64,000 bases of DNA, from contig JAHFTC010000003.1 in NCBI GenBank assembly GCA_023269585.1, positions 1 through 64,000 on the forward strand, in the 5' to 3' direction. Positions within the stretch are counted from its first letter, which is position 1; each line of letters opens with the position of its first letter. The stretch is from Opitutaceae bacterium. Lineage in GTDB: Bacteria; Verrucomicrobiota; Verrucomicrobiia; Opitutales; Opitutaceae. The position numbers and the translations under genes are program-made. Below the pieces are notes generated by a model, which worked only from the letters and a program-made list of their open reading frames with translations, ran no database searches and was not told the DNA's origin. Of the stretch, positions 2,949 to 36,296 are shown one piece after another.

Positions 2949-5900
2949 TGGGCACGAAGAGCTGAACCGGGCCGTTGCAGCGGGCGACGATGACGGCGGG
3001 GGTCTTGGATCCGGGGAGGGTGAGTGCGGCGGCGGCGCGGGCCTCGCCGTCGACGACGAGGCCGGAATCGCCGGGCAGGAGGGCGGTGAAGTTGCCTTGG
3101 CCGTCGCCCTGGAGGAAGACGCCGAGGCCGCCGTCGAAACGGCCGGTGGTGGGCTCGGGGCCGAAGTCGTTGCCGACACAGACGAGGTCGAGCCGGCCGT
3201 CGGCGTCGAAGTCGCGGGCGACGATGGCGTTGATCGGGGCGAGCTGGGCGGCGGGGGGTAGCTCGGCGAACGAGAAGGTTCCGTCGCCACGATTCAGGTA
3301 CACGCCGCTGGCGAGTTCGGTGGCGGCGAGGCGGCGCGTTTGCGCGAGGCGGTCGGCGCCGAAGATGTCCTCGACGGAGGCGCGGGAGAAGGCGGCGTAG
3401 GTGGGAAACTTGCGCGGGAGCCACGGGAACGCGTAGGCGAGCTTGCTGCGGCCGCGCACGGGCGCGGGGCGGCCGTCGACGTAGTGGGCCTTGACGAGGT
3501 GTTCGCGGCCGGAGTTGTCGAAGACTCCGGAATACAGGAGCGCGGGCTCGGCGGCGGAGGCGTGGTACTTGGTGTTGAGGCCGGTGTTGCCGACGACGAG
3601 ATCGGGGCGGCCGTCGCCATTGACATCAGCGACGGTGAGCGCGCTCCACCAACCGGTGCGGGCGGCGAGTCCGGCCTGCGCGGTGAGGTCCTCGAACCCG
3701 TGGCCGGTGTTGCGCCAGTAGCTGATCGGACCCCAGTCGAGGGCGAGGAGGAGATCGGGGCGGCCGTCGCCGTCGATGTCGGCCCAGGCCGCGGCGGTGA
3801 CCATGCCGACTTCGCGCAGTCCGGGCGCGAGCTGGTCGGTCACGTCGACGAGGTTTCCGCCTTCGTTGCGGTAGAGGAAGCTGCGGGGCGTGGCCGGGTA
3901 TTTGCCGGGCACCACGCGGCCGCCGAGGAAGAGATCGGTGGCGCCGTCGCCGTCGAAATCGGCGGCGGTGAGGGCGCCGAGGCTGGTGCCCGCGCCGGGC
4001 AGCGCGGCGGTGGGGGCGGCGGCGAAACGGCCGGCGCCGAGGTTGCGGAAGACCCGGGCGCCGAGCGCGGGGTCGCCGGCGTTACGTCGTATCCCGCCGG
4101 AGGCGACAACAAGCTCGGGGAGCCGGTCGCCGTCGAGATCGGCGAAGAGCGCAGCGGTGTCGTCGGAGGCGAGATCGGCCTCCCACGGCTGGTCGGGCGC
4201 GGCGACGAAAGTGCCGTCGGCGCGGGCGAGGAACAGCCGGCCCGGCCGTCCGTGTTGGCCGGCGACGAAGACGTCCTCGTGGCGGTCGCCATCGACATCG
4301 GCGACAGCGAGGGCGGGCGCGGTGCCGTTGAGCCGGCGCGGGAGCAGGCGCTGGCGGGAGAGTTCGTCGAAGGGTCGCAGCGCGGTCTCGAGTTGCAGGC
4401 CGTGGGCGGCGGCGGTTTCGGTGAGCAGCGCGGCGGGGTTCGCCGGGGTCTGGCGCACGGCGGGCGGCAGCGGGGCCGCGGGATCGAGTGGCGGCTCGGC
4501 GAGGGTGAGGAGCTGGTCGGCGGGGAGATTTTCGAGGACCTGCACCTGGCCGCGCGGCCAGTGCACCGTGAGCCGGCGCACGCGGGTGTCGGTTCCGAGG
4601 CCGAAGTGCGCGACGGGCGGCTCGCTGGCGACGATGCCGCGCTCGGGAAAGAGCTGGCGCACCTGCACGCCGGAGGCGGTTTCGAGGCGGAGCTCGGCGC
4701 CGATACCGTCGAGGTTGGGCGCGCGGCCGGCGAGTTTCACGGCGAGGCGGTGGCCGGTGGCGGTGTCGTTGCGGATGAGGCTCGGGGGCTCCTCGCAGTT
4801 GGCGTAGACGAGGTCGAGGTCGCCGTCGCCGTCGAGATCGGCGAGGGCGCAGCCGAAGGCGACGCTCGGCTGGTCGAGTCCCCAGGAGGCGGAGACATCG
4901 GCGAAGCGCAGGTCGCCGAGATTGCGGTACGCGAGCGTGGGCTCGCGGCGCGGCGGGGCGTTCTTCCAGACGGCGGCGCGGGCGGCGAGGGTGGGGGCGA
5001 CGTTCTGTTTGTCGACGAGGTCGGCGTCGAGGAAGTTGCGGATCATCCCCGAGGTGAAGAACACGTCGGTGTGGCCGTCGTTGTCGAGGTCGGCGAGGCG
5101 CGGGGCCCACGTCCAGCCGGTGGCCTCCATCCCGGCGAAGTGGGCCAGCTCGAGGTAGCGGTCGGTGCCGGTGTGCAGGTAGAGGGCGTTCCACATGTAC
5201 TGCGGAATCAGGTCGGTGACGCGCTCGGTCTCCCAGAGGCCGCGACCGACCTCCTCCATGCCGGTCATGAAACCGGCGTGGGTGCGCTCGCGCATGTCGG
5301 TGACGAGAAAGTCGGTACGACCGTCGTTGTTGAGGTCGCCGAAGTCGGCGCCCATCGAGAAGTAGGTGACGTGCGGGAGGCGCTGGTCGACGACGTCGGC
5401 GAAGGTGCCGTCGCCGCGGTTGAGGTAGAAGCGGTCGGGGGTCTCGAAGTCGTTGGCGACGTAGAGGTCGGGCCAGCGGTCGCCGTTGGCGTCGAACCAG
5501 ATCGCGGTGTGGCCCTGGGTGAGGCCCCAGATGCCGGCCTCCTTGGAGACGTCGGCGAACTTGCCCGCGTCGTTGCGCAGGAGGTAGTCGCGGCGGCCCT
5601 GCGGGCTCTTGGCGAAATCGAGGATGTTGGTGACGAGGTAGGCGTCGAGGTCGCCGTCGCGGTCGTAGTCGGCGAAGACGGCGTGCACGGAGGCGTCCTT
5701 GAGCGCGAGGCCGTACTCGGCGGCGCGTTCGGTGAACGTGCCGTCGCGGTTGTTCACGAAGAGGAGATTGGGGGCGTCGTAACGGCAAACATACAGGTCG
5801 GGCCAGCCGTCCTGGTTGAGGTCGACGGCGGTGACGCCGACCTTCGGCGCGGGCTCGGCGGCCTCGACGCCGGCCGCGGCGGCGCGGTTCTCGAACCGCC

Positions 5901-18048: not shown

Positions 18049-18109
18049 ACGGGGGCTGAAGCACCCCGCCACTCAGGACGAAGCGTGGCCCGGTGCTTCA
18101 GCCCGGGCT
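18049..18109. repeat. REP pair (type B reversed, then type A)
   Basis: Two REP hairpins with a 12-base spacer: a type B unit on the minus strand (18049-18072) and a type A unit on the plus strand (18085-18109). Type B has the stem GCGGGG/CCCCGC and type A GCCCGG/CCGGGC; both have a GTG foot and a TTCA tip. The bases before it (about 18015-18048) match the tail of the full 168-bp element near the transposase. It sits between two converging genes, where it may also stop transcription. Confidence 0.8.
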
Positions 18110-30339: not shown

Positions 30340-30738
30340 GACGCCGCCGATACTGCACCAGTCCGTCGCGCAAAGAAAGTGCCGATGATGCGCCCAAGGC
30401 CTTGACAAACCGAATTTGCGTGGCCTCTTTACCCTCGATCCAATCATGAACCACCGCACCACAGTCCCGCGCCGCCAAGACGACCTGTTGCCCGTCGTCT
30501 TCCCGGGCGTGCCCGGTGCCGCGACCTGAGTCCCTTCGTCTGGATACACGACGGAGCGACCCCGGTCAACGGACCGGGCCGACCCTCGCTCCTCGCCACC
30601 GGCGGCCGCTGAAGCGGCGCCGTGTCCCGCCCCGGCGGATGCCCGCGATCCGCCTTCCCGCCCATCCAGCGCCCCGGCGCACCACCCCTCCGTTCCATCG
30701 GCACCGCCCCCGGGCGTTGCCGCCACGACCTCGCCGCC
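30340..30738. other. 399-bp divergent intergenic region
   Basis: The region between the divergent EamA gene and the aldo/keto reductase-fold cluster. It should contain both promoters. No consensus promoter, RNA or small gene was recognised. Confidence 0.4.
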
Positions 30739-31746
30739 ATGGATCACCGTCCCTTCGGTCGCACCGACCTCACCATCTCCCCGCTCGCGCTCGGCACCGC
30801 CCGTTTCGGTTGGCGCACCAGCGCGGCCGAAGCCGCCGCCATCCTCGACCTCTACCGTACGCAGGGCGGCAACCTCGTCGAAACCAGCGCCGTGTGGTGC
30901 CGCGATCCCGAGAACGCCGCGCTCTTCGCCGCGCCGGGCGAGCACCTCGTCGGCCGGTGGCTGGCGCAGGACCCCGAGCGACGGCGCGGGCTCGTCCTCG
31001 CCGGGCGGGTCTTCCTCGGCGCGCGCCTGTGCGCCGCCGCCGACTTCGCCGTGCGCGTCCGCGCGAACTGCGAGGCCTCGCTGCAGCGTCTGAATACCGA
31101 ATACTTCGACCTGCTCCAGATCGAGTGGCGCGAGGACTCCGGGCCGATCGAGCGTCTGCTCGAGGCGCTCCGGCCGCTAGTGCGCCAGAGCCGCGTCCTG
31201 CGTCTCGGCGCCGCCGGCTTCCCCGCCTGGCGGGTCGCCACCGCGAACTCCGTCGCCCAACAGGCCACACTCCCCGCCCTGCAGACGGTCCAGGCCGCCT
31301 TCTCCCTGCTCGACCCGCGTCCGTTCGAGCGCGAGTACGCGGAGCTGTGCACCGAGCACCGCCTCGCGTTCCTCGCCCGCGCGCCGCTCGCGGCCAGCAC
31401 GCTCGCGCACAGTGTCGATTCCCCGCATCGCGATCTGCGCTGGGCGGCGCTGCTGCCCTCCACCCATCAGCTCAGCGTCCGCGAGCGCCTCGCCTGGGTC
31501 GCCCAACGCCGCGGGGCCACGCTTGCCCAGACCGAGCTCGCCTGGGTCCTGAGCCACCCGGCCGTCGCCACCGCGGTGGTCCACGCCACCTCGCCGGGAC
31601 AACTCACGGAGTGGATGCAGGGTGCCGCCGGCCGCCTGTCCCACGAGGAGCAGGTGCTCCTGCGCCATCCCTGGACTCCGGCCCCGACCGGCGCCCCGCC
31701 CGTCGAGCCCGTCTCGGAGTTCGTGCTCGCCACCGCCCCCGGCTGA
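30739..31746 (+). CDS. Aldo/keto reductase-fold protein without the catalytic tetrad (1)
   Basis: A 335-residue TIM-barrel protein that starts FGRTDLTISPLALGTARFGW, the usual family opening. All four catalytic positions are changed: Asp to Glu48 (LVETS for FDTA), Tyr to Trp53, Lys to Arg90 (VLAGRV) and His to Glu129 (DLLQIEW for DLLQIHW). Reduction of carbonyls by NADPH is therefore unlikely. Barrel motifs such as LRLGAAGFPAW and the C-terminal helix remain. It is a paralog of the protein at 32628 and heads a four-gene cluster with a metallophosphoesterase and a Rnk-like protein. The ATG at 30739 gives the conserved start. It may be a regulatory or structural pseudoenzyme. Confidence 0.85.
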   Translation: MDHRPFGRTDLTISPLALGTARFGWRTSAAEAAAILDLYRTQGGNLVETSAVWCRDPENAALFAAPGEHLVGRWLAQDPERRRGLVLAGRVFLGARLCAAADFAVRVRANCEASLQRLNTEYFDLLQIEWREDSGPIERLLEALRPLVRQSRVLRLGAAGFPAWRVATANSVAQQATLPALQTVQAAFSLLDPRPFEREYAELCTEHRLAFLARAPLAASTLAHSVDSPHRDLRWAALLPSTHQLSVRERLAWVAQRRGATLAQTELAWVLSHPAVATAVVHATSPGQLTEWMQGAAGRLSHEEQVLLRHPWTPAPTGAPPVEPVSEFVLATAPG

Positions 31747-31896
31747 ACGGCTCCGCCGCCACGCCGGGCCGCGGAGCCGGCGACCACCGCTCCGCCCGCC
31801 CTCCGGGAGGCCATCGCGCCATCCCTTGCCCCGCCTGCCCGCCCACTTCGCGGCCGGCCCTCCCCGCGTCAGTAGAACACCCCGACACTGCCCGCC

Positions 31897-32613
31897 ATGA
31901 CCATTCTTCACGTCACCGATCTCCACTTCACCGAGCGCTGGTTCGCCTGGCTGCACGAGTCCGCGCCGCACCACGACCTGCTCTGCATCTCCGGCGACCT
32001 CCTCGACCAGAGCCGCGCGATCCCGTTCCACCGCCAGGCCGCGCTCATCGCCGAGTGGCTGACGCTGCATCCGCGCCCGGTGTGCGTGTGCAGCGGCAAC
32101 AGCGACCTCGAGTTCCTCCCTCCTGGTCAGCCCCGGCGGCCGGCCACCTGGCTGCGTGCACTCTCCCGTCCGCGCCTGCGCGTCGACGGCGACACCGCGT
32201 TCCTCCACGGCCGGTCGATCGAGGTCGCCGGCTACCACGAGGCGCCGCGCGGGACCGCCGACATCTGGCTCGTCCACCTGCCGCCGACCGACACCCCGGT
32301 CGCACGCAGCGAATACGGCATCGACCTCGGCGACAAGGGCCTCCCGGCCCTCGTCCGGGAGCACCGGCCACGGCTCGTGCTCTCCGGCCACGTCCATCAT
32401 CCCGAGGCGTGGTTCCACGAGGAGGACGGCACGATCTACCTCAACCCGGGTTGCTCCCGCGGCAGCCGCATCCCGCAGCACATCCTCATCGACCCGGACC
32501 GCTTCGCGGCCACCCGCGTGACCGAGGGACCGATCGGATCGTACTCCGAGACGGTCCTGTGGCCCGCCGCCCCGTCCATCACCGAGCACGAGCACCAGCA
32601 ACTCTCCGCCTGA
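31897..32613 (+). CDS. Calcineurin-like metallophosphoesterase with an altered GNH motif
   Basis: A 238-residue cytoplasmic phosphoesterase. The metal-site motifs DLH (Asp8, His10), GDLLD (33-37), LVHLPP and GHVHHP are all present. The third motif reads GNSD (67-70), so the catalytic His of GNHD is Ser69. In related enzymes that His protonates the leaving group, so its loss suggests altered or slow catalysis or a restricted substrate such as a phosphodiester. It lies 150 bp after the first aldo/keto reductase-fold gene and only 14 bp before the second. Confidence 0.87.
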   Translation: MTILHVTDLHFTERWFAWLHESAPHHDLLCISGDLLDQSRAIPFHRQAALIAEWLTLHPRPVCVCSGNSDLEFLPPGQPRRPATWLRALSRPRLRVDGDTAFLHGRSIEVAGYHEAPRGTADIWLVHLPPTDTPVARSEYGIDLGDKGLPALVREHRPRLVLSGHVHHPEAWFHEEDGTIYLNPGCSRGSRIPQHILIDPDRFAATRVTEGPIGSYSETVLWPAAPSITEHEHQQLSA

Positions 32614-32627
32614 ACCCAACCACCGCC

Positions 32628-33620
32628 ATGAAACAACGCAAACTTGGCCGGACCGACCTTCTCGTCTCCGAGTACTGTCTCGACGCCGCGGCGCTGGGTT
32701 GGCACCCCGCCGCAGCCGGCGCCGACACCGTGCTCGACGCCTTCCGCGAGGTAGGCGGCACCTTCATCCAGCTCCAGGCCGACAGCGGCGACGACGCGGG
32801 CGAGTCCGGAGTCGGCGCGCTCTCCGAGACGCTCGTCGGCCGATGGCTTCACAGCCGCCGGATTGCCCGCCCCGATGTGGTGCTCGCATACTGCGTCCAC
32901 CTTCCCTCCCTCTCGAGCTACTTCCGCCTCGCCGCGGAGATCCGCTTGAGGTGCGAGCGCGCCCTGCGCCGCCTCGGCACCACGTACCTCGACCTGCTGC
33001 TCATCCGCTGGACCGACGGGCTCCCGGTCGACGACACCCTCGTCGCCGTCGAGTACCTCCAGCGCAGTGGTATGTTCCGCCACCTCGGCGGCGGCGGGTT
33101 CCCCGCTTGGCGCGCGATGGAGTGGATCGGGCATGCCGACCGGCGACGCCTCTCGCGACTGGACACGCTCCAGACCGAGCTCGCGCCTCCCGCGGACACC
33201 GGTTCGTGGCAGGAGCTCCGCGATCTCGCCCGCCACCAGCGCCTCGGGCTCGTCGTGCGACCACCCTACACCGGCCCGACCGACGACGAACGCCCGCGCA
33301 GCGTCCTGCGTCCGTATCCGGTCCGCGATTCGGCCGGCTGTGCGATCGCGCAGATCGCGCGCGAGCGCGGCCTGCCGCCGCGCCATGTCGCCCTCGCGTG
33401 GACGCTCGCCGATCCGACGGTGAGCGCGGTCCTCGTCCCGGCCTCCACCCCGCCCGAGGTCGAGGACCTGCGCCGCGCCGCCCGGATCGAACTCGCGTTC
33501 CGCGAACTGCTCCAGGTCGGCCGCGCCGCCCCGCCGGTCGTCACACCCGGCTTCCACGAGCCGAACGGACACGAACTCCTCACCTCCCTCCAATCCACTC
33601 CAACCCACTCCGCATCATGA
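32628..33620 (+). CDS. Aldo/keto reductase-fold protein without the catalytic tetrad (2)
   Basis: A 330-residue paralog of the protein at 30739, opening LGRTDLLVSEYCL. The catalytic positions are again lost, with different replacements: Asp to Gln48, Tyr to Ser53, Lys to Cys89 (VLAYCV) and His to Arg127 (DLLLIRW). The cofactor-side region (LVVRPPYTGP, then a SxxNxxE-like tail) is also degenerate. Because both paralogs lost the same four positions in different ways, selection seems to keep the fold but not the chemistry. Its stop overlaps the Rnk-like start by four bases (ATGA), so the two are translationally coupled. Confidence 0.85.
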   Translation: MKQRKLGRTDLLVSEYCLDAAALGWHPAAAGADTVLDAFREVGGTFIQLQADSGDDAGESGVGALSETLVGRWLHSRRIARPDVVLAYCVHLPSLSSYFRLAAEIRLRCERALRRLGTTYLDLLLIRWTDGLPVDDTLVAVEYLQRSGMFRHLGGGGFPAWRAMEWIGHADRRRLSRLDTLQTELAPPADTGSWQELRDLARHQRLGLVVRPPYTGPTDDERPRSVLRPYPVRDSAGCAIAQIARERGLPPRHVALAWTLADPTVSAVLVPASTPPEVEDLRRAARIELAFRELLQVGRAAPPVVTPGFHEPNGHELLTSLQSTPTHSAS

Positions 33621-34063
33621 TCCACATCCGCAAAGACGATTACCTCCAACTCAGCCTCCTGCTCTCCCGCCACCCCGAGCCGGCGGGCCGCGCCTCGCTG
33701 CGCGACGAGCTGGCTGCCGCCACCGTGCTGCCGCGCGAGAACTTCCCCGCCGACATCGTCGCGATGAACTCGCGCGTCGGCTTCGTCGACCTCGATTCGG
33801 GCGAACACGAGGAGTACACGCTCACGCTCCCGCAGCACGCCGACGCCGAGGCGCGCCGCCTCTCCGTGCTCTCGCCCATCGGCACCGCCCTGCTCGGTTA
33901 CCGCGTGGGCGACGAGGTCTCGTGGCCGACTCCCGGCGGGGCCCGCCGGTTGCGCATCGTCGCCGTCACCCATGGCGAGGCCCCCACCGCCGGCGAGGCC
34001 GCCGATGCGTTCCTCGTCCGCCTGCTCGGAGGCAGCCCGACCGCGGCGGGGGCACGAGCCTAG
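33617..34063 (+). CDS. Rnk/GreA-C domain protein (nucleoside diphosphate kinase regulator-like)
   Basis: A 148-residue protein. The second half is the FKBP-like C-terminal domain of GreA/GreB/Rnk (VGFVDLDSGEHEEYTLTLP, then SVLSPIGTALLGYRVGDEV). The N-terminal ~45 residues form a short helical segment, as in Rnk, rather than the long coiled coil of GreA. Rnk binds RNA polymerase and alters nucleoside diphosphate kinase levels in gamma-proteobacteria. It is coupled to the preceding aldo/keto reductase-fold gene by a 4-base overlap. The C-terminal extension (GEAADAFLVRLLGG) is unusual. A role in transcription is inferred from the domain. Confidence 0.87.
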   Translation: MIHIRKDDYLQLSLLLSRHPEPAGRASLRDELAAATVLPRENFPADIVAMNSRVGFVDLDSGEHEEYTLTLPQHADAEARRLSVLSPIGTALLGYRVGDEVSWPTPGGARRLRIVAVTHGEAPTAGEAADAFLVRLLGGSPTAAGARA

Positions 34064-34080
34064 TCACCAACTCCGGCCCC

Positions 34081-34208
34081 GTGGCGGGGTGCTTCAGCCC
34101 CCGCAGGACACCGTCGCCCACCGCAAGCGCCCCTGCGCAACCCAAGGCTCCGTCAACACCGGCCCCGGCCGCACGTATCCGCCCGCCCGGGCTGAATCCC
34201 CGGGCCAC
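34081..34208. repeat. REP doublet (type B then reversed type A variant)
   Basis: A 128-bp element. A type B hairpin (34081-34103) on the plus strand and a type A variant (34185-34208) on the minus strand, with stem GCCCGG/CCGGGC and loop GGATTCAGC, face each other. It occupies nearly all of the gap between the converging Rnk-like and TonB-receptor genes, so it probably also ends their transcripts. Confidence 0.8.
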
Positions 34209-34214
34209 GTGGCG

Positions 34215-36296
34215 TCACCACCGCCACTCAAGCGTGGCGGTGACGGAGCGGGGGTTGCCGGGGAGGAAGAGCGCGGTGGTGGCGGGGGTGCGGGCGAGGT
34301 CGAGCACGCCGGCGGTCGAGGCGATGTACCGGCGGTTCAAAAGGTTGTTCACCTCGAGGCTGAGGGTCCAGTGATCATCGAGCCACGACAGGCCCGCGTG
34401 GGCGAGCGTGTGGCCGGAGTAGCCGAGCTTGTTCGCGTGATCGACGTAGGTGGTGCCCCAGCTCCATCTGGCGCCCAACCGCACCGCGAGCCCGCCTTTC
34501 TGCCCCCAGCTGAGCTGCGCGATGCCGACGTGCGGAGGCAACCCGGCAAGCCGACTGGTTCCGTACACGGGGTCGCGTGCGAAACGCGCCTCGCTCCAGG
34601 TATGCCCCAAAAGCAGATCCACCGGTGGCGTCCCGCCGACGAACGGCGATCCGCGGTAGATCCGCCACCGCAGCTGGCTCTCGATCCCGCGGTGCCGCGT
34701 GGGACCGGCGTTGACGGTGCCGCGCGGCGAACTGTCGGCGTCGGCCAGCCGGAGGAGCTCCTCGCGCCAGTCGGCGATGTAGGCTTTGACGTCGAACCAC
34801 AGCCGTTCCGGCTGGCAGAGCCGGTCGCCGAAGCTGCCGCGCACACCGACGGACAGCGTGTCCGCCGTCTGGGCACGCAGGGGAGTCCAGCCGAGCGCGA
34901 GGTTCGGCGCGGTGCCGCGCACGGCGAGCAGGTCGTCGAAGGTCGGCGCCTCCACGCCGCGCTCCGCGCGCACGAAGCCCTCGACCAAGCGTCGCCCGTA
35001 CTCCGACGGAGGCGACACCACGATCTCGCAGTGCGGCGCAAGCTGGTCGGCGCGCATGGTGCCCGTCGCCGTCGCTGTGCCGGAGGCTTCACGCCGCGCT
35101 GCCACCACCGAACAACCAGCCTTGAGCGAGACGTTGCGGGCTGGCTTCCAGCGCGCGTCGAGCCAGCCGGTCAGCGTGCTCGCCTGAAGGTCGAGGTCGG
35201 CGAATTGGGCGCCGCGCGCGCCGCCCCCGTTGGCAAAACGCTCCTGCGTGCGCGAACCGGCGACGCCGGTGAGACCGGCTGCGACCTGCACTGGTCCCAC
35301 CGTCCACGCATCGGCCAAGAGGGCGGAGAAATCGGCGCCGCGCGTGACCACAATCCCGTTGGCACGCAACTGGCGGAAATCGTCCTCGGCCGCCTGCACA
35401 CCGAACGCGACGGTGGGTCCGTCGTCCCAGGTGGCCCGATAGACCAACCGCGCGTAGTCGGTCGTGCGGCGCGGGAGACTGGCCGCGGCGCCGGCGGAGA
35501 TTGTGTCGGGTTCGCTCTCCGCCGCCGCGAGCGTGAGCGGGCCCGGAATGCGCAGAGCTGCGCGCACGGCGTAGACGGTCAGCGATTGCGTGGGCCCGCC
35601 GCGGCCCGGCCACTTGGCCTGCACCGCGGCAGCGAGCCGTTCCTGCTCGCTGTTCGGCCGCCAGCCCTCGCTGCGCGTGACGGCCAAGGCGGTTTGCCAC
35701 GGCGATGGCGTGTCCGCGCCGGCGCCATCACGGACCAGCGCACGCACGAGACCGTCGTTCCCAACCGAGACCGAGGCCGCGCCCGATACGTCGCCAGTTT
35801 TTCGCCACCAGAAGAGATCGAGCGCGCCACCCAACGCCTGTACTGCGGCGACGGAGTCGAGCGCCCCGGGCTGGAAGGAGAACGTGCCAAAGAACCCTGG
35901 CTCCAGCAGCGCGAGGTTGAAGGAACCGTCGGCCGCGTTGAGCGGCAGCGAGTCCAGGCGGAGCAGAAGCCCGCGACTGGTGGGCGCGCTCTGCAGGCCG
36001 GACCCGCGCACGGTGATGCGCGGCGGGTAGAAACCGTCGCCGCTCTCCTGCAGGATGAGACCGGGACTGGCCGGCAGCGCGGCGGTGAGCGATGCTGCGG
36101 CCGCCGGACTATCTTCATCATCGGTGATCGGGACGCGCTCCCACGGCTCCCGCACGCCCTCGACCGTCATGGACGGCAGGTGGATCAGTTCGGCGCCGAT
36201 CGCAGACGCCTCGTCGCGGGCCGCGAGCAAGCCCGCACCACCCCACAGCAGTGCAAGCAGGAGAGACCGGCGAAAGGGCGCGCGGAGGGATTGCAC
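34215..36296 (-). CDS. TonB-dependent outer-membrane receptor
   Basis: A 693-residue outer-membrane transporter. A signal peptide (residues ~8-28) precedes a plug domain with PGLILQESGDGFYPPRITVRG and, near residue 115, GLLLRLDSLPLN. A barrel of many alternating strands follows, ending in TATLEWRW. The aromatic C-terminal residue is the assembly signal for the Bam complex. Receptors of this type import chelated iron, vitamin B12 or sugars. The clear TonB box is replaced by MTVEG near residue 43. The GTG at 36296 is chosen over a TTG at 36332 because it gives a clean signal peptide. No siderophore genes are nearby, so the substrate is open. Confidence 0.88.
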   Translation of the reverse strand: MQSLRAPFRRSLLLALLWGGAGLLAARDEASAIGAELIHLPSMTVEGVREPWERVPITDDEDSPAAAASLTAALPASPGLILQESGDGFYPPRITVRGSGLQSAPTSRGLLLRLDSLPLNAADGSFNLALLEPGFFGTFSFQPGALDSVAAVQALGGALDLFWWRKTGDVSGAASVSVGNDGLVRALVRDGAGADTPSPWQTALAVTRSEGWRPNSEQERLAAAVQAKWPGRGGPTQSLTVYAVRAALRIPGPLTLAAAESEPDTISAGAAASLPRRTTDYARLVYRATWDDGPTVAFGVQAAEDDFRQLRANGIVVTRGADFSALLADAWTVGPVQVAAGLTGVAGSRTQERFANGGGARGAQFADLDLQASTLTGWLDARWKPARNVSLKAGCSVVAARREASGTATATGTMRADQLAPHCEIVVSPPSEYGRRLVEGFVRAERGVEAPTFDDLLAVRGTAPNLALGWTPLRAQTADTLSVGVRGSFGDRLCQPERLWFDVKAYIADWREELLRLADADSSPRGTVNAGPTRHRGIESQLRWRIYRGSPFVGGTPPVDLLLGHTWSEARFARDPVYGTSRLAGLPPHVGIAQLSWGQKGGLAVRLGARWSWGTTYVDHANKLGYSGHTLAHAGLSWLDDHWTLSLEVNNLLNRRYIASTAGVLDLARTPATTALFLPGNPRSVTATLEWRW

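Follow-up and report, generated by a model that had tools for sequence, protein, structure and literature searches.

Catalytically dead aldo/keto reductases and a shared leader in a conserved gene module of Opitutaceae

Why should a bacterial genome keep two aldo/keto reductases (AKRs) that have lost every catalytic residue, packed closely together with a metallophosphoesterase (MPE) and an Rnk-like gene? This question is raised by a stretch of 64,000 nucleotides from an Opitutaceae bacterium (contig JAHFTC010000003.1), hereafter called the window. An earlier note on this DNA had proposed that catalysis was lost independently in the two paralogs and that the four genes form a complex or regulatory unit. 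We find that these four genes represent, in this genome, a module conserved in Opitutaceae, in which the tetrad-less AKRs make up one clade, the genes are linked and kept under selection, and a shared leader carries a conserved small open reading frame (ORF) and a hairpin. Since the dead AKRs are kept beside genes of presumed slow growth, and since the operons usually open with the same leader, these proteins seem to be conserved under joint regulation and not to be decaying.

One clade of dead aldo/keto reductases

The four genes lie on the forward strand in the order AKR1 (30739–31746), MPE (31897–32613), AKR2 (32628–33620) and Rnk (33617–34063). The 14-bp gap between MPE and AKR2, the ATGA overlap of AKR2 with the Rnk gene and all coordinates agree with the earlier note. 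Pfam assigned Aldo_ket_red to AKR1 (4.7e-34) and AKR2 (1.2e-18), Metallophos to the MPE (5.3e-13) and the GreA_GreB C-terminal domain (PF01272, 1.1e-22) to the Rnk-like protein. The entire cluster is present at approximately 95% identity in G001, a genome of the window's genus. Between the two, dN/dS was 0.355 for AKR1, 0.157 for the MPE, 0.153 for AKR2 and 0.195 for Rnk, and the synonymous sites of the four genes differed by 8–17%. Purifying selection on all four genes is clear, and a chance arrangement is excluded because the whole cluster recurs in G001 at this identity with low dN/dS. The view that the genes are not decaying, which the earlier note would have given up had the cluster lacked conservation with dN/dS near 1, thus stands with values of 0.15–0.36.

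The catalytic positions were assigned by a structure-referenced alignment to DepB (PDB 8hwn), whose catalytic residues are D48/Y53/K81/H122. The corresponding residues are E48/W53/R90/E129 in AKR1 and Q48/S53/C89/R127 in AKR2, identical to those named before, so that the Asp-Tyr-Lys-His tetrad of active AKRs reads E/W/R/E and Q/S/C/R, respectively. Intact catalytic residues at shifted positions, which would have spoken against this, were looked for in the same alignment, and none was found in AKR1 or AKR2. The (alpha/beta)8 fold itself is retained. PF00248 scored above its cut-off, and an AlphaFold2 model of AKR1, in which some loops are of low confidence and which we read above the level of residue coordinates, is an AKR barrel (pLDDT 81.9, pTM 0.82) with a TM score of approximately 0.78 to 7utf and AKRtyl and of 0.74–0.76 to DepB.

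In a tree of 43 AKRs, all 32 tetrad-less rows fell on one side of a single branch (UFBoot/SH-aLRT 100/100), and paralogs of this bacterial family in which DYKH is intact adjoined the clade (100/97). Tetrad loss is one change on this tree. The topology indicates that the catalytic residues were lost once, in the common ancestor of the Opitutaceae dead AKRs, and that AKR1 and AKR2 are later divergences within the single dead clade; the independent loss assumed earlier does not hold. Each of the two AKRs of G030, a related genus, groups with a different one of the window's, the first with AKR1 (88/98) and the second with AKR2 (100/97), so that the pair appears to be older than the genus. Both proteins have drifted beyond most members of the clade, AKR2 furthest.

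What replaced the tetrad is not random across the clade. The commonest pattern is Gln-x-Arg-Glu (QxRE), with Gln for Asp48 in 27/32 members, Arg for Lys81 in 27/32 and Glu for His122 in 23/32, while the Tyr position is unconstrained and shows 13 different residues among the 32. A Trp stands directly after the old His (W123) in 31/32, and of the clade-specific Arg residues one (R158) is present in 30/32 and another in 27/32 rows. Moreover, Arg replaces the aromatic residue at DepB position W/Y206, which in AKRs stacks on the nicotinamide, in 28/32 members. The NADP(H) site of AKRs includes the SN-motif Ser, this aromatic and Lys/Arg near the 2'-phosphate; with S152 kept in 9/32, K217 in 1/32 and R220 in 0/32 members, the NADP(H) site is probably lost from most of the clade. 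The cofactor-site Q and the SPLAGG loop are retained by most members.

By sequence and structure, the nearest solved relatives of the window AKRs are those of the AKRtyl (AKR12D)/DepB/Tas type (8jwn, 8hwn, 7utf, 1lqa), which have the barrel fold and the N-terminal motif in common with them. Unlike these, the window clade lacks the tetrad, carries Arg instead of the nicotinamide-stacking aromatic and has the new Gln/Arg/Glu/Trp set. The Kv-beta subunits (AKR6), in which an AKR fold serves as a regulatory subunit while retaining the catalytic residues and NADPH, are also similar in sequence and fold, but the setting here is a four-gene cluster without a channel gene. In the literature searched, which was covered incompletely and mostly at the level of titles and abstracts, neither a comparable AKR pseudoenzyme clade nor a comparable Opitutaceae leader was found. 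The clade shows clearly how an enzyme fold can lose catalysis once and then be retained with a new conserved residue set in an apparently co-regulated module, and the function of such a pseudoenzyme becomes testable in culturable Opitutaceae.

A conserved neighbourhood with variable order

Linkage was assessed in 200 genomes, which are Opitutaceae going by their named records. Among the 28 dead-AKR matches (below approximately 1e-110), 27 adjoin Rnk, MPE or a ribosome-hibernation factor (HPF) and the remaining one adjoins a homospermidine synthase gene, compared with 0/11 intact AKR loci beside Rnk, MPE or HPF. Likewise, approximately 20 of 21 strong MPE matches have Rnk within a few kb. The families recurring among the neighbours include an HPF/RaiA-like protein (PF02482; 12 loci), homospermidine synthase (PDB 2ph5, E 1e-95; 8 loci) and, in addition, a small cupin, a protein resembling MscS and one of 82 aa that belongs to no family. 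Because the loci used for this clustering were partly picked for co-localisation, the count over the 28 matches is the less biased figure. The tight linkage proposed by the earlier note therefore extends over the family and, with HPF and homospermidine synthase, over a wider gene set than it had considered. As for the gene order, whose conservation it proposed to test, the whole cluster is present in G001, but across the family order and content differ, with loci that have only AKR and HPF, only AKR and Rnk, or only MPE and Rnk. In G006, too, the AKR and Rnk genes overlap by ATGA (L042 7823–7826).

The Rnk-like protein comprises 148 aa, with a GreA/GreB C-terminal domain and a short N-terminus, and matches PDB 3bmb (1.5e-16). 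Its score of 100.6 bits lies below the cut-off of 109 for the NCBIfam Rnk equivalog. E. coli Rnk binds RNA polymerase and its function is unknown (PMC4598747). While E. coli Rnk and the GreA-family secondary-channel proteins have the same C-terminal domain and short N-terminus, the window type differs from E. coli Rnk by its neighbours (AKR, MPE, HPF and homospermidine synthase) and by the sub-equivalog score. The module gives Rnk, known in E. coli to bind RNA polymerase, a genomic context that is conserved. Another set of Rnk-MPE pairs (L068, L069 and L070) lies near ClpB and a gene that by eye resembles phosphatidylserine decarboxylase; neither a dead AKR nor the leader was detected at these three loci.

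The window MPE is of the calcineurin-like type with the motifs DLH/GD/GNSD/H127/GHVH. All ligands of the di-metal site (D-x-H, GD, GN, H, GHxH) are present as D8, H10, D34, N68, H127, H165 and H167, whereas the catalytic His of motif III is replaced by Ser (GNS for GNH) in the window and in G001, which agrees with the changed motif noticed earlier. Most relatives have GNHD, and GNS reads as a local change of the window's genus. The MPEs of G152 and G182 lack several motifs. With the family mostly GNHD and loss scattered, degeneration of the phosphoesterase is sporadic, in contrast to the AKR clade. The fold is near aq_1956, LpxH, MPPED2 and Rv0805, a match that does not fix the substrate, and the sequence search gave no convincing solved relative. 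VPS29 and MPPED2 are known for altered metallophosphoesterase motifs and have the calcineurin-like fold in common with the window MPE at low sequence identity (approximately 15%), but the window protein differs from these degenerate members in having all metal ligands.

The phosphoesterases at L065 8251–8940 and L067 7986–8675, which lack several metal motifs (DLR, GN, GFHD, GRVP), likely represent a second line of pseudoenzymes within this neighbourhood. In G030, the module is duplicated as AKR-MPE-Rnk-MPE-AKR-Rnk (L040 5631–10199, G030:C81), the first MPE having GDHD and GRVH. The 82-aa protein (SNNNLRRMQGWAR..., cluster c8, e.g. L067 6925–7176) is conserved and has no match in Pfam or NCBIfam; its gene is preceded by the same leader in G134, while the leader in G062 is weaker.

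A shared leader with a small open reading frame and a hairpin

The regulatory connection suggested by the earlier note is supported by an element upstream of AKR1 that it had not described. The leader emerged from a dyad count that picked ATCT-N12-CCGG, found in 13 target upstream regions versus 1/312 others; a 42-nt profile reached at least 6 bits in 32/96 target upstream regions, 15 training sequences included, versus 0/359 others. In the window, the conserved element spans 30483–30585 on the forward strand, with the core GTCTTCCCGG at 30497 followed by a hairpin (E 5.5e-11 with the covariance model R2). This model, built from 10 leaders with the window among them, gave 20 significant sites in the 200 genomes. 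Every one precedes a gene for Rnk, MPE, AKR or the 82-aa protein, and 10 are outside the training set. The site at 30483–30585 is the sole significant one in the window's genome. The leader is also well preserved within the genus. From 30395 to 30620, 223 of 226 positions are the same in G001 (98.7%) although synonymous sites differ by 8–17%, so that it is more conserved than these.

Two other identities of the leader were rejected. A dispersed repeat does not fit, since a pattern combining box, core and CCGG has a single occurrence in the window's genome and eight in 57 genomes; seven of the eight lie upstream of module genes, and the last one is in a different family of this order. A known RNA family does not fit either, given that Rfam yielded no match at the gathering threshold in the window or at 10 loci and nothing below E 0.2 in a permissive search. 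All significant matches of another model, R1, belonged to its own training set, and it therefore gives no independent evidence; its matches near E 1e-3 (L199–L202, L204), none of them beside target genes, were regarded as noise, as were two 29-bit matches in the window's genome without a proper element (L121, L143).

The predicted operon promoter is marked by a -35-like box, TTGACA, at 30402–30407 on the forward strand, preceded by C. In 27 of 29 non-redundant elements the core is preceded, at a distance of 89–112 nt, by a TTGAC(A/T) box, and CTTGAC(A/T) occurs in 2/143 control upstream regions. Judging by its spacing of 17 nt past this box, CTCTTT at 30425–30430 is a possible -10 region; the -10 consensus is weak across the elements, and a generic sigma-70 scan returned no promoter at 30402–30430.

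Downstream of the box, a small ORF of 27 aa (MNHRTTVPRRQDDLLPVVFPGVPGAAT) is predicted at 30446–30529 on the same strand, its start codon lying 44 nt past the first base of the -35 box. When the core is read in the frame of its ATC, a stop follows 12–48 nt after the core in 29/29 elements, mostly after exactly 24 or 30, and an in-frame ATG is present in 24/29. In the other two frames a stop was found in 10–11 and an ATG in 3–6 of the 29, and both together in 2 and 1 of 29; control regions had both start and stop in 5–11 of 104. The predicted peptides end, for example, in VVFPGVPGAAT, YICPERPGAAS or VIFPALPAL. Eight phosphoesterase/Rnk-type elements have an ATG, GTG or TTG start 35–38 nt after the start of the -35 box, which places the start of the small ORF at the predicted transcription start; the seven counted ORFs of this type (L060, L062, L063, L064, L065, L083 and L084) each have 34 codons.

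The long hairpin of the window folds from 30509 to 30580 on the forward strand, and its 5' arm includes the last codons and the stop of the small ORF (z -3.8 for an 80-nt stretch, -1.76 for the 115-nt fold). Across the elements the mean z was -3.2, with 23/30 below -2, versus -0.5 in 80 control regions. The arm sequences differ among elements, yet taken together the 5' arms pair better with their own downstream regions; in an arm-permutation test, own-arm pairing summed to -848.5 versus -672 (SD 18), and 0/20,000 permutations were as low. Judged by these sequence statistics, a conserved small ORF overlapping an RNA structure, as in leader-peptide attenuators, is present.

Such a layout, a short leader ORF ahead of a structured region, is known from TnaC, SpeFL and ErmBL upstream of metabolic or resistance genes. 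The Opitutaceae leader differs from these in sequence and in having its start codon at, or close to, the point where transcription is predicted to begin, and it has no known inducer. Attenuating leaders with a terminator and antiterminator have been proposed upstream of rnk-family genes in Proteobacteria and Firmicutes (rnk-leader and greA-leader; PMC2965389). The window leader resembles them as a cis element upstream of rnk-family genes, but it has no Rfam match or detected terminator, and a small ORF overlaps one hairpin. The element, comprising peptide and hairpin, is apparently undescribed, and it ties together genes of transcription, ribosome hibernation and polyamines in Verrucomicrobiota.

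Possible mode of action, alternatives and the downstream boundary

We lean, by a small measure, towards reading the whole as a leader-peptide-controlled slow-growth module with dead, ligand-binding AKRs. A single transcript would probably start from the promoter at approximately 30402–30430 and run through the leader ORF with its overlapping long hairpin, approximately 200 nt of leader, and AKR1-MPE-AKR2-Rnk. Ribosomes on the leader ORF, responding to some translational or metabolic state, may govern operon expression. Dead AKR, phosphoesterase and Rnk, joined elsewhere by HPF and homospermidine synthase, would then be co-produced as growth slows; slow growth or stress is suggested by a set of products covering HPF, an RNA-polymerase-binding Rnk and polyamine synthesis. 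In the ancestral AKR, the conserved Gln/Arg/Glu/Trp/Arg set probably took the place of the tetrad and of the aromatic that stacks on nicotinamide, and because of this replacement the barrel most likely binds a ligand, probably an anionic one, without reducing anything. The ligand-bound AKR could then be a sensor or scaffold subunit through which partner proteins are influenced. That the new leader-peptide family with its hairpin is the common cis control of an Opitutaceae slow-growth regulon, comprising HPF, Rnk, homospermidine synthase, phosphoesterase and ligand-sensing AKR pseudoenzymes jointly, is a tentative extension to which we give a little less than even weight.

Several observations weigh against this reading. 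A ribosome placed on the stop of the small ORF left the predicted accessibility of the gene start unchanged (0.547 to 0.549, p 0.61), which gives no support to simple sequestration of the start site, and a scan of the leader found no intrinsic terminator; the two simplest attenuation schemes are thus unsupported, and Rho-dependent termination, mRNA stability or ribosome arrest are possible modes instead. RNAalifold on plain MAFFT alignments recovered only 7 pairs with little covariation, a weak signal because hairpin lengths vary, so that the arm-permutation test carries the claim of covariation. Not every member keeps the new pocket, as AKR2 of the window lacks both R81 (Cys) and E122 (Arg). 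Furthermore, most of the relatives' genomes are metagenome-assembled, and the gene calls at their loci are heuristic.

The leader might act as a structured RNA only, through stability, processing or a protein-binding site, with the small ORF a by-product of RNA geometry. The strength of the hairpin would fit, as would the core AUCUNCC, which varies in the middle of the second codon (Phe/Cys/Ser/Tyr) in the manner of nucleotide rather than peptide conservation. We nevertheless find this doubtful, in view of a same-frame stop in all 29 elements and an ATG in 24, far above the other frames, of NTG starts that keep a constant spacing to the -35 box in phosphoesterase/Rnk-type elements, and of the Leu codons TTG, CTG and CTA that swap immediately before the core. 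As for the AKRs, the QxRE clade could consist of active enzymes whose old barrel now hosts a different chemistry, whether or not a nucleotide cofactor takes part, given that the replacements at the catalytic positions and the barrel mouth are conserved and non-random and that the cofactor-site Q and the SPLAGG loop persist. This is unlikely in the face of a freely varying Tyr position, an Arg where the aromatic should stack, drift of the new residue set in several members including AKR2, and the failure to find a homologue of known activity.

A physical complex of AKR1, AKR2, MPE and Rnk, with the dead AKRs as scaffold for the phosphoesterase and an RNA-polymerase-binding subunit, would account for the tight linkage, for translational coupling through the AKR/Rnk ATGA overlap that is also seen in G006, and for the conserved Trp and Arg positions, but the gene order and content that vary among loci make it improbable as well. 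Relaxed decay of duplicated AKRs on their way to loss would draw on the AKR1 dN/dS of 0.355, on the long branches (1.54 and 1.32) that lead to the window's genus in the AKR tree, and on G103, where homology starts within the phosphoesterase gene on a contig without AKR1 or leader. Decay is however ruled out for practical purposes, with hardly any probability left to it, by dN/dS far below 1, by family-wide retention with clade-specific residues and by a leader more conserved than synonymous sites.

In G103 (L059, G103:C154, approximately 2983–3690), the first 16 codons of the phosphoesterase, which hold metal motif I, differ from those of the window. At the downstream end, homospermidine synthase directly follows Rnk in G001 (L039 7339–8787) and in G103, and there is none at this place in the window. 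The match between the window and G001 ends at 34056 (L039 7335) and resumes at 34215 (L039 9494), skipping approximately 2 kb, which in the window are replaced by approximately 160 bp (34057–34214). Because this replacement contains a repeat resembling REP elements, the comparison suggests that the homospermidine synthase gene was lost from the window by a repeat-associated deletion. The repeat, GGGTGCTTCAGCCCCC, has 10 copies in the window versus 0.12 expected; exact copies lie at 18051, 34087, 36356, 41280 and 42535, and the five others have 2 mismatches.

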